DNA of 64,000 nucleotides from Sphaerochaeta pleomorpha str. Grapes (lineage in GTDB: Bacteria; Spirochaetota; Spirochaetia; Sphaerochaetales; Sphaerochaetaceae). The position numbers and the translations under genes are program-made. Shown here piece by piece: positions 58,276 through 62,066 of this stretch (its first letter is position 1; every line of letters begins with the position of its first letter). The notes below the pieces were generated by a model. It ran no database searches. It was given only the letters and a program-made list of their open reading frames with translations, and was not told where the DNA came from. Location: contig NC_016633.1 in NCBI RefSeq assembly GCF_000236685.1, forward strand, positions 2,046,001-2,110,000, written 5' to 3'.

Positions 58276-59451
58276 AAAAGGCTTTGCCAGGAAAAGTACC
58301 GACAAACAGCCAAAACCCGAAACCAAAACCCAGTACAGACTGATAGAACCCCATTTCAAGACAGCTAGGGCCACCATTGCAGCAATCAGGCCCCCAATTT
58401 GCATCAGCATGGAGTTAAGGCTGAGGGCGGAGGAACGTACCGAAGAATCGAGAGCAAGGTTGAACAAGACACCCCCGACAACGGAGACTATGCCAAGCAG
58501 AAAATATATCAGGGCATAGGCGATACAGAAAGTGACAACATTCCCACTTACAGCAAGTATCATTTCCATTCCAAACGTTAAAAACAAACCAATCAGGAAA
58601 AGACAGTTCGCCCGACTTTTTTTCAAAAGGACCTTTGCCGAGAAGGCCCCTGCAACACTTGCTACAAAAACCATGCCTCCAACCAAGCCAAGGACCCAGA
58701 GCTTTCCATTACTGGCAAGCAGCCCCTTCAAAAATGGTTGCCAATAGCTTTCAAGGGAAGCAAGCAATAGTCCCTGCATGCCTGTATAGGTGATAAAATA
58801 CACAAGGAAAGGTTTCCCCTTTACCTGTAAAAAAAGCAGGGAAGCCTGTTCTCTAAGTGCAACGCGAGGAAGTCTCGGATTCTGGTCCTTTTCGATCAGA
58901 AAACTCACAAGGATGCAGTTGAAAAAAAGCAGAGCCATCCTTACGACCAGGACCAGGTCACATAGATGGGCCCCTTCCCTTCCCTTGGCAAGAAGATACC
59001 CTCCGATAAAGGAACCTACAGCCAGGGAGACACTCGTACAGATATCCATTGCTACCATTGCATTCTCGAGTTTCCCATTATTACCCAGTTGGTCCTCTAT
59101 AAGCAGGGCATCGAGGCTTCCGCTTCCAAAAGCCCTCCCAAGACCAGTGAGTGAGAATCCCAAAAGAAGAAATCCAACCGACGGGGAAAAGATACAGAGG
59201 GAACCAAGCAGAGATAAAACCTGCCCGGCCTGATAGCTGTTCCTTCTACCTTTCGCATCACAGAATATTCCACTGGGAACTTCAAACAGGAGCATTGTCC
59301 CCGAATAGCAGAGCATGGCTAATCCAAGGTAGAATAGTGAGTACCCTTTGCTTACCACCAAGAGACCCATAGCGGGAATCAACAATCCTGTAGCAACCGA
59401 CCCAAAGGAAAGAACCAGAAGGTACGGTCCTATCGTATTGCGCCTAACCAT
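58252..59451 (-). CDS. Major facilitator superfamily transporter
   Basis: This protein of about 399 residues has 12 hydrophobic segments. The loop after helix 2 reads GIFCDAKGRRNSYQAG, matching the MFS GxxxDrxGRR motif. The substrate is not deducible. Met 59451 is the start: its ATG overlaps the end of the ArsR-type gene by 8 bp. The pair reads as a regulator-exporter unit for a toxic compound or metal. Confidence 0.85.
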   Translation of the reverse strand: MVRRNTIGPYLLVLSFGSVATGLLIPAMGLLVVSKGYSLFYLGLAMLCYSGTMLLFEVPSGIFCDAKGRRNSYQAGQVLSLLGSLCIFSPSVGFLLLGFSLTGLGRAFGSGSLDALLIEDQLGNNGKLENAMVAMDICTSVSLAVGSFIGGYLLAKGREGAHLCDLVLVVRMALLFFNCILVSFLIEKDQNPRLPRVALREQASLLFLQVKGKPFLVYFITYTGMQGLLLASLESYWQPFLKGLLASNGKLWVLGLVGGMVFVASVAGAFSAKVLLKKSRANCLFLIGLFLTFGMEMILAVSGNVVTFCIAYALIYFLLGIVSVVGGVLFNLALDSSVRSSALSLNSMLMQIGGLIAAMVALAVLKWGSISLYWVLVSGFGCLSVLFLAKPFSKVAPKS

Positions 59452-59965
59452 GGTACAGCACCAAGGAGTACACAAAAGGAATGGTTTCCTTGTTCTTCTC
59501 TTCATGTTTTTCTATGAATGATTCAATGATCTCATTCAAGTGATCTGCTTGGCTTTGGGTAAGATGCAGGACACCTGTTTTAATATCAGCCGAAAAGTGA
59601 CCGGAATCTTGGTCAAAATCCTTTATTTTCTTGAAAAAATCATCCTGGACTTCCTTCAGCAGATTCTGGGTTACCACTTCCCTCTCATCCCCCTGCAAAC
59701 CTCCGAGGCTGACTGTGACCAGGGTTTTCCGGTAATAGGTGGCAGTAATTCCATGGATCAATTGCTGGCGGTCCAGCTCGACAATTCCCAGTTCCACAAG
59801 TTTGAGGATATGGTGCTTTGCACTCGAGCTGGTAATTTCCAAGGCATTGGCAACCATTTTAGGGGTCATCGGTCCATTCACGGAGAGAAGCTGAAGAATT
59901 TTCTGACGGGTGGGTTGCATGAAGATTTTCAACTGTTCTGTAGTCGTAAGGGTTATTGTGTTCAT
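59444..59965 (-). CDS. ArsR-type winged-helix regulator
   Basis: This protein of 173 residues starts at 59965 (MNTITLTTTEQ). The wHTH is TRQKILQLLSVNGPMTPKMVANALEITSSSAKHHILKLVELGIVEL, residues 17-62. A C-terminal region of about 100 residues follows. The promoter holds a 19-bp inverted repeat between its -35 and -10 boxes, so the protein likely represses itself and the overlapping MFS gene. No clear metal-binding Cys cluster is seen, so the ligand may be organic. Confidence 0.8.
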   Translation of the reverse strand: MNTITLTTTEQLKIFMQPTRQKILQLLSVNGPMTPKMVANALEITSSSAKHHILKLVELGIVELDRQQLIHGITATYYRKTLVTVSLGGLQGDEREVVTQNLLKEVQDDFFKKIKDFDQDSGHFSADIKTGVLHLTQSQADHLNEIIESFIEKHEEKNKETIPFVYSLVLYHG

Positions 59966-59972
59966 AACAATA

Positions 59973-60002
59973 TATATAACATAACATTTATTGTTATGTA
60001 AA
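59973..60002 (-). promoter_or_regulatory. arsR-MFS promoter with operator in its spacer, leaderless type
   Basis: On the minus strand, TTTACA (59997-60002), 18 bp, TATATA (59973-59978), then 7 nt to ATG 59965. The spacer is filled by CATAACA-ATAAA-TGTTATG (59980-59998), a perfect 7-bp-armed inverted repeat. This is an ideal place for self-repression. Confidence 0.65.
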
Positions 60003-60083
60003 GAATAATGATGCTTCTTTTTGTTTTTATATACAATTTCTACCACTGTCTAAAAATAAGGTCTAAAAATAACGTTTTTTTAC

Positions 60084-60112
60084 TTGCATTAATCACTATA
60101 TCTTGTTATCAT
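60084..60112 (+). promoter_or_regulatory. metK promoter
   Basis: TTGCAT (60084-60089), 17 bp, TATCAT (60107-60112). The expected start, about 60118-60120, falls just before the riboswitch aptamer. Confidence 0.65.
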
Positions 60113-60117
60113 CCCAA

Positions 60118-60238
60118 CAATGACGTCGATTTGACAGCCTCCCGGCTTGCAGACGTCAATAAAGAAACTTGCTAAAAGGGGAGCGCGGTCTATTTCCGCC
60201 ATATATCCCCCTTCCGCAGTTCCTAAAGGAAGGGTTTC
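60118..60238 (+). ncRNA. SAM-II riboswitch with translational expression platform in the metK leader
   Basis: The aptamer spans about 60121-60183. Helix P1 is TGACGTC (60121-60127) with GACGTCA (60152-60158). The conserved SAM-II nucleotides GATTTG, GGCTTGCAG and, 3' of P1, AATAAA and GCTAAAAGGGG are present in order. Loop TCCC (60140-60143) can pair with GGGA (60179-60182) as the pseudoknot. Downstream, CCCTTCC (60209-60215) is fully complementary to the Shine-Dalgarno GGAAGGG (60228-60234). GGGGA (60178-60182) can alternatively pair with TCCCC (60206-60210), freeing the ribosome site. Bound SAM should therefore switch metK off. SAM-II is best known from alpha-proteobacteria. Confidence 0.8.
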
Positions 60239-61387
60239 ATGTTAGAAAAAGGTTCTCATATCTTCACTTCGGAATCAGTAAGTGAAGGACATCCCGACAA
60301 AGTCTGTGACCAGATTTCAGATGCAATTCTCGATGCTTGCCTTGCAGAAGACAAGAATAGCAGGGTAGCCTGCGAAGTATTTGTCACTACAGACAGGGTA
60401 ATCGTCGGAGGTGAAATCACCACCAATGCAAAACTTGATATTGAGACAATCGTTCGTACGGTAGTCAAGGAAATCGGATATACAGAAGAGGGGATAGGAT
60501 TCGATTACAAGACCCTTACGGTCGAAAATCTCACCAAAACACAATCAGCAGATATCTCTATGGGCGTTACCGCAAGCAGCAGTCTCTATGGGGAGCAAGG
60601 CGCAGGCGACCAGGGAATGATGTTTGGATATGCCTGTGACGAGACTCCGTCCTTGATGCCTGCCCCTGTGGTCTGGGCCCATGAGTTGCTTAAAAAGGCT
60701 ACCGAGCTGAGGAAGTCAGGCAAAGCCCCGTTCTTACGTCCCGATGCAAAAAGCCAGGTTTCCGTTGTCTATTCAGACGGCGTTCCCGTTCGTATCGACA
60801 CTGTTGTCATCAGCCACCAGCACTCAGAGGAGGCCACAAGGGAACAATTGACTGAGTTCCTAACCGAACAGGTTATCCAACCAATACTGGGACCTACTGG
60901 GATGCTCGACAAACAAACAAAATTTTTGATCAACCCCACTGGAAGGTTTGTTATCGGAGGTCCCGCCGGGGATACTGGTTTGACCGGTAGAAAAATCATT
61001 GTCGACACCTATGGCGGGATGGGAAGGCATGGCGGTGGAGCTTTCAGCGGCAAAGACCCCTCAAAGGTAGACCGGTCTGCAGCATACATGGCACGTTTTG
61101 TCGCCAGAAACCTGGTGGCAAACGGTCTCTGCCATCGTTGTGAAGTACAATTTTCCTATGCCATAGGCGTTCCTTATCCGATTTCGATCTATGTAGACAC
61201 CTTCGGGACAGGGGTTATGGACGACACAGAGCTTGAAAAACTTGTGAAAAAGAATTTCGATCTTTCACCTGCAGGTATTATAAAAACCCTGGACCTAAAG
61301 AGACCAATCTACCGTGCAAATGTCAATTATGGGCATTTCGGCAAGAAGGATGTTCCCTGGGAAGAAACTATCACTTTGAAAAAGTAA
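60239..61387 (+). CDS. metK: S-adenosylmethionine synthetase
   Basis: This 382-residue enzyme makes SAM from methionine and ATP. Signatures are [24 protein letters not shown] (ATP-binding His), [13 protein letters not shown], the phosphate loop [13 protein letters not shown]-type segment ([26 protein letters not shown]), and the N-terminal catalytic His. It is usually encoded in one copy. Translation is probably controlled by the SAM-II riboswitch in its 120-nt leader. The 3' end overlaps the convergent nrdG by 17 bp. Confidence 0.96.
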
Positions 61388-62066
61388 CGATAGCCCCCTG
61401 GAAAATCTTGAGTTCATCTATCCATCCCTGCACCTCGAAACAATCAGGTGCAGGTGTATGGATTTTTTTTTCCTCATCCTTCTTGTAACAGGCAGGGAGC
61501 CTATACCGATTCAGGCGCCAGAGAGGAACCTTTGGCATCTGGCAGGCAATCTTGCGCAAATCCGTTTTCCCCAAGGTAGGGGCAACCGTTGTCCTCGTTT
61601 CCCAACAGATGTTCGAACCCTTTAGTAAAGAAAGTGATTCTATGACTGTTTGGGGCCTTGCCCCTTTTCCACAGATTTCACCATATCTTTCCCAAGGTGC
61701 CTTTACATCAAGGGCAATATAGTCGACCAACTGTAAAAAAAGCAGTTTCTCCAGAACCTCCGGAGAGTTGCCATTGGTGTCAAGTTTAACCAAAAACCCC
61801 TTCTCCTTGATCCAGGAACAATAGTCGGGCAAATCGGGCTGAAGGGTTGGCTCACCACCGCTGATGACCACCCCTTGCAGTAAATCTTTCCTTGAGTCCA
61901 GAAATGTTCCCACCTTTTCTTGCCCGAGCAAAGTTCCCTTGGAAGCAACCAATTCACGGTTATGGCAATAGAAACAATCGTAGGAACACCCTTGGGTAAA
62001 TAACACACAGGCAATTTTACCCGGATAATCCAGAAACGTAGATTTTACCATTCCGCCTATGTTCAT
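61371..62066 (-). CDS. nrdG: Anaerobic ribonucleotide reductase activating protein (radical SAM)
   Basis: This 231-residue radical-SAM enzyme makes the glycyl radical on NrdD. The cluster motif is C-x3-C-x2-C (CSYDCFYC, residues 27-34), and [11 protein letters not shown] follows for SAM binding. It overlaps the upstream nrdD stop by 4 bp (ATGA). Like NrdD it works only without oxygen. Confidence 0.9.

Follow-up and report, generated by a model that had tools for sequence, protein, structure and literature searches.

SAM-II riboswitches have been described in alpha-proteobacteria, with a few cases in other proteobacteria and in the Bacteroides group (PMC1273637). In this textbook riboswitch, ligand binding hides the ribosome site directly or else brings about termination; the class is said to be mostly transcriptional (PMC2258182; PMC6061858) and has also been described as directly occluding the Shine-Dalgarno (SD) sequence (PMC10907184). 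A SAM-II with a 5-bp P2a helix is thought to be transcriptional, in contrast to the translational metX element with its 2-bp P2a (PMC6061858), and for metA of S. meliloti translation at a distance was reported (PMC9373788). The SAM-II long loops family (RF01726) is known from Bacteroidetes and marine samples (PMC2864571), and SAM-V (RF01826), which is translational, has a pocket near-identical to that of SAM-II (PMC6061858).

The window analyzed here, a stretch of 64,000 nucleotides from Sphaerochaeta pleomorpha, contains a SAM-II-type element directly upstream of metK (Table 1). This leader is probably an OFF switch for metK with an indirect translational platform, a reading for which we infer that SAM binds, that an antisequestor forms and that binding turns metK off, while aptamer, pseudoknot, mask hairpin and gene context can be regarded as established at the sequence level. 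The initial annotation had placed a SAM-II core here, and all of its motifs were recovered: the 7-bp P1, GATTTG, GGCTTGCAG (beginning at 60144), AATAAA (3′ of P1) and GCTAAAAGG (beginning at 60171). The conserved core nucleotides GATTT, TTGC and CTAAA are all present, and the proposed pseudoknot TCCC/GGGA extends to the 5-bp helix CTCCC/GGGAG (P2a), which is separated from the SAM-pocket strands TTGC and GCTAA by three bases.

Table 1. Features of the metK leader and its surroundings (positions in the window).
Feature	Position	Strand	Remarks
Probable promoter, TTGCAT-17-TATCAT	60084..60112	+	8/12 consensus matches
P1 helix, 5′ strand TGACGTC	60121..60127	+	Pairs with 60152-60158; 7 bp
SAM-II core GATTTG (loop L1)	60128..60133	+	Conserved; RF00521 alignment
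P2a pseudoknot, 5′ strand CTCCC	60139..60143	+	Pairs with 60179-60183
TTGC, strand of SAM-pocket helix P2b	60147..60150	+	RF00521 alignment
P1 helix, 3′ strand GACGTCA	60152..60158	+	Pairs with 60121-60127
GCTAAA, P2b partner strand	60171..60176	+	RF00521 alignment; core nearly invariant
AAGGGG, proposed antisequestor strand	60176..60181	+	Inferred; overlaps P2a 3′ strand
P2a pseudoknot, 3′ strand GGGAG	60179..60183	+	Pairs with 60139-60143; 5 bp
Linker hairpin GCGG/CCGC	60185..60199	+	p 0.04 in this leader; sequence not conserved
CC flank outside mask	60207..60208	+	Conserved; proposed antisequestor extension
Mask arm CCCTTCC	60209..60215	+	Fully complementary to SD GGAAGGG
SD GGAAGGG of metK	60228..60234	+	4 nt before ATG (60239)
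metK, SAM synthetase, 382 aa	60239..61387	+	PF00438, PF02772, PF02773

Of the two covariance models suggested for checking the annotation, only RF00521 (SAM-II) matched. Searched against 211 nt, it aligned over its full length (positions 1-79 of 79) to 60112-60196 with 27.3 bits and E 1.5e-4, or E = 5.9e-4 when the whole genome (one contig, 3590853 bases) was searched. Since this score is below the RF00521 gathering score of 36, which is a curators' cut-off and not a structural feature, a scan of the window at Rfam gathering cut-offs reported nothing. RF01826 gave no match to the leader at E<=10, and a SAM-V identity was dropped for this reason. RF01726, which resembles the leader in having a bulge and stem inside L1, reached 19.3 bits, below the RF00521 score and far below its own cut-off of 44. 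No RF00521 match at E<=0.003 was obtained in 14 control genomes, and a phage collection searched for the element yielded no match either. Leader matches to the Rfam families PK-HAV and RF_site9 were regarded as noise, and a second weak RF00521 match in the same genome (at 2167612, 16.6 bits) was not accepted.

A score below the gathering cut-off counts against a functional switch and would also fit a SAM-II look-alike that has lost SAM binding or binds another ligand. We consider a look-alike highly improbable, as the core, the 3-nt spacing between P2a and pocket and the metK context are all as in SAM-II, relatives within the genus and class lie above the cut-off, at 36-49.5 bits, and some sister genera use SAM-I in front of metK. 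Second elements in G002, G018 and other members of Sphaerochaeta likewise score above the cut-off, and Sphaerochaeta elements of this kind may already be contained in the Rfam full alignments.

The leader shares P1, the L1 sequence GATTTG, the TTGC/GCTAA pocket strands, an A-rich L3, the P2a pseudoknot and a downstream methionine/SAM gene with known RF00521 elements (Agrobacterium metA, PMC1273637; Sargasso Sea metagenome metX). In contrast to the described members, which carry terminators or an SD inside P2 (PMC10907184; PMC6061858), it combines a 5-bp P2a with a remote SD under a separate hairpin and is found in a spirochete. As the initial annotation had supposed, this host is unusual: no paper joining Sphaerochaeta with riboswitches was found in the open-licence literature, and the Sphaerochaeta elements extend SAM-II well outside alpha-proteobacteria and Bacteroidetes.

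Within Sphaerochaeta, the element was present at metK in all 25 genomes where metK was found. RF00521 matched 24 of 26 genomes at E<=0.01; of the remaining two, G006 was found to carry it when the sequence was inspected (L076), and G007 had no metK match. At the family level, RF00521 matches occurred in 46/139 genomes and 14/22 genera, and across the class the element is thinly spread, with matches in 39 of 395 evenly drawn genomes. A pattern scan of named genomes found the motif on Sphaerochaeta contigs, including S. halotolerans; a match in Bacillus (L112) was ascribed to chance, with no long open reading frame (ORF) or met gene behind it.

Since a mixed MAFFT alignment of metK and compact elements misplaced P1, the metK leaders were aligned alone (alignment A3, 23 distinct distal-type leaders; row L035 is out of register at the mask arm and adds a few unpaired cells). 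In these leaders P1 is paired in 96% of the alignment cells and two of its pairs show two-sided changes (G-C to A-U in G006, for instance); P2a is paired in 98% and hardly varies. Across 70 distinct SAM-II-like aptamers from Spirochaetota, P2a does covary (CTCCC/GGGAG, CTTAC/GTAAG, TCAC/GTGA, GGC/GCC), with 121 of 184 cells paired versus 104 on average over 2000 permutations (p 0.0005). Covariance model, conserved core, covariation of P1 and P2a and gene context together support the annotated assignment of the metK leader to the SAM-II class, and SAM binding is predicted. The full 5-bp P2a is almost confined to distal metK leaders, whereas compact forms mostly have 2-3 bp adjoining the pocket, a contrast that parallels the published one between 5-bp and 2-bp elements (PMC6061858).

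The SD of metK lies 45 nt past the aptamer and not inside it as in direct occlusion, and it is covered by a masking helix as in an indirect translational riboswitch platform. The full complementarity noted in the initial annotation was confirmed, and the helix stands out against dinucleotide shuffles both in this leader (p 0.012) and in most relatives (p about 0.001-0.05; 0.1-0.3 in a few). Mask pairing is kept in 96% of cells over the 23 distinct leaders, which represent three genera, and the arrangement recurs in different letters in two further genera (G080, G034). This conservation in three genera, together with the counterparts in two more, supports a separate SD mask at metK. The changes in the mask among leaders are mostly G-U, with one C-G to U-A. 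In the antisequestor, the same comparison of relatives showed no two-sided change.

The S. meliloti metA element resembles the leader in that its start codon is far from the aptamer (PMC9373788). With this precedent of a long-distance SD, and since the pseudoknot sequence GGGGAG resembles an SD and, in compact relatives such as G130, occupies the place of the real one, GGGGAG might be taken as the ribosome landing site and the downstream hairpin as incidental. We regard such translation at a distance as improbable. In S. meliloti the SD is located in the aptamer, whereas the leader has a separate, hairpin-masked SD by the ATG; this is a good SD whose GGAAGG core is invariant in 23/23 leaders, and a landing site in the pseudoknot would leave its conserved mask unexplained.

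In the proposed OFF switch, plentiful SAM would cause repression of metK translation. With SAM bound, P2a (CTCCC/GGGAG) would hold the GGGGAG strand, leaving the CCCTTCC arm free to cover the SD GGAAGGG and to turn metK off. Without SAM, P2a would open and the freed AAGGGG could pair with this pyrimidine arm, whose transcription precedes that of the SD; the ribosome site would then remain accessible and metK would be translated. The absence of an intrinsic terminator between aptamer and metK (search of 60000-60300) and the sister genera with SAM-I at this gene speak in favor of such a switch.

The two mutually exclusive folds that the initial annotation had read from the sequence are possible in the examined leaders and energetically plausible, whereas the antisequestor stands at the level expected from composition and has no two-sided covariation, which counts against the OFF switch. 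By duplex energy, its most stable register pairs AAGGGG (60176-60181) with CCCCTT (60208-60213), and in an alternative register GGGGA (60178-60182) is able to pair with TCCCC (60206-60210). Taken by itself, the complementarity does not reach significance here (p 0.27) and is no better than composition in most other leaders (p 0.07-0.9; G080 p 0.012). The pairing is kept in 96% of cells, every change being a one-sided wobble. Two-sided covariation is hardly to be expected here: the pyrimidine arm has two partners, the SD and the P2a strand, and other functions fix the sequence of each. Mask and antisequestor share this arm and are inseparable by covariation. The best independent hint for an antisequestor is the conserved CC flank, which is unable to pair in the mask and carries 1.44 and 1.74 bits over 23 leaders, compared with 0.93 bits at the outermost mask position and 0.03-1.07 bits in the linker. 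An antisequestor competing with the mask for the pyrimidine arm is likely but unproven.

Folding was computed by a nearest-neighbor method without pseudoknot, with blocked aptamer strands as a stand-in for bound SAM. Over the leaders folded, SD accessibility was 0.00-0.11 with the aptamer strands blocked and 0.02-0.74 with the strands free (0.15 for the leader in the window). Transcripts that stop short of the SD fold into the antisequestor, its pairing fraction being 0.62-0.87. For this leader the mask is more stable than the antisequestor (-13.9 vs -10.5 kcal/mol); given this equilibrium and the free-state accessibility of 0.15, a switch would need co-transcriptional (kinetic) folding or ribosome capture. 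That the mask remains stable whether the aptamer strand is present or absent, and that the antisequestor is not significant alone, would also suit a static mask, in which the SD hairpin sets a low basal translation and SAM acts otherwise, e.g., on mRNA stability, as SAM-II mRNA stabilization was reported in S. meliloti (PMC9373788), or on Rho-dependent termination in the untranslated leader. A static mask appears unlikely to us, although less so than the other alternatives: against it stand the conservation of the CC flank outside the mask, the maintained antisequestor pairing and the formation of the antisequestor ahead of SD transcription.

If the OFF switch is true, an indirect SD mask with the P2a strand as antisequestor would give SAM-II a kind of platform that has not been described for this class, and no separate SD mask on a SAM-II turned up in a search of the open-licence literature. 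A remote mask under aptamer control would show the re-coupling of an H-type pseudoknot aptamer to a new output. Compact elements in G130 and G488 have the same aptamer, gene and phylum as the leader, but there the 3′ strand of P2a probably serves as the metK SD and a mask hairpin is missing. At three further loci (L130, L131, L136), the SAM-II-like element in front of metK has a terminator-like hairpin and T run behind it. We lean slightly towards the view that in one phylum, and in front of one gene, the same SAM-II aptamer has three outputs: direct SD occlusion, intrinsic termination and an indirect SD mask with the P2a strand as antisequestor, the last of these in Sphaerochaeta and sister genera. 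As compact, remote-mask and terminator forms all occur on metK within one phylum, the transition could be studied in relatives. In G142 (L045), G077 (L032) and G415 (L138), the SD of a compact SAM-II serves a short ORF with metK downstream; the short ORF of G077 ends at the metK SD, which suggests translational coupling to metK.

In genera g9, g38 and g39, four metK leaders have SAM-I in place of SAM-II (47-57 bits), and a SAM-I search in three Sphaerochaeta genomes found none. Two genomes, G085 and G033 (L089, L085; L042, L030), have SAM-I before metK (53-56 bits) and SAM-II elsewhere; as of 2007, no species with both classes was known (PMC2258182). Tandem SAM-II-like aptamers about 130 nt apart were seen at seven loci of genera g39, g7 and g9 (L030, L042, L044, L046, L047, L048, L049). 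The first aptamer (GATTTACACTTCTACTTGCAGCCGTT-ATCTGCTAAAGGAAG) has an unusually short L3, and a terminator-like hairpin and T run lie behind it; the second, a compact SD-occluding form, precedes unknown genes. Mixed tandem SAM-II is already a known kind (PMC9481103).

Concerning the surroundings of the element, promoter-like boxes, similar and equally spaced, occur in most relatives, and a strict consensus promoter scan called none; transcription is expected to start just 5′ of P1. Most leaders contain a short linker hairpin of variable sequence with modest statistical support. The next downstream ORF (61371-62066) is on the opposite strand to metK. Upstream, a winged-helix (ArsR-like) regulator gene (59444-60046, minus strand) is divergent from metK, and several relatives (L013, L016, L017) have a similar gene in this arrangement. 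A second metK outside the window (G000:C1:3100996-3102099, L090) is 50% identical and has no SAM-II. Second copies also exist in G029, G147 and G009; as these copies are similar and their upstream sequences closely so, they are perhaps located on a mobile element.

Additionally, P1 and the GCTAAA strand are set apart by an insertion of about 70-80 nt in the SAM-II before metK at L082 (G034). Many Sphaerochaeta genomes, and also a sister genus, have a second SAM-II of compact form (L003, L004, L005, L006, L009, L011, L015, L034), which precedes a protein of about 130 aa (MQYTPIY...) without Pfam match; no such element was accepted in the genome of the window. Elsewhere in Spirochaetota, SAM-II-like elements precede uncharacterized proteins (L098, L101, L102, L126, L133) and represent an unexplored set of candidate SAM-controlled genes.
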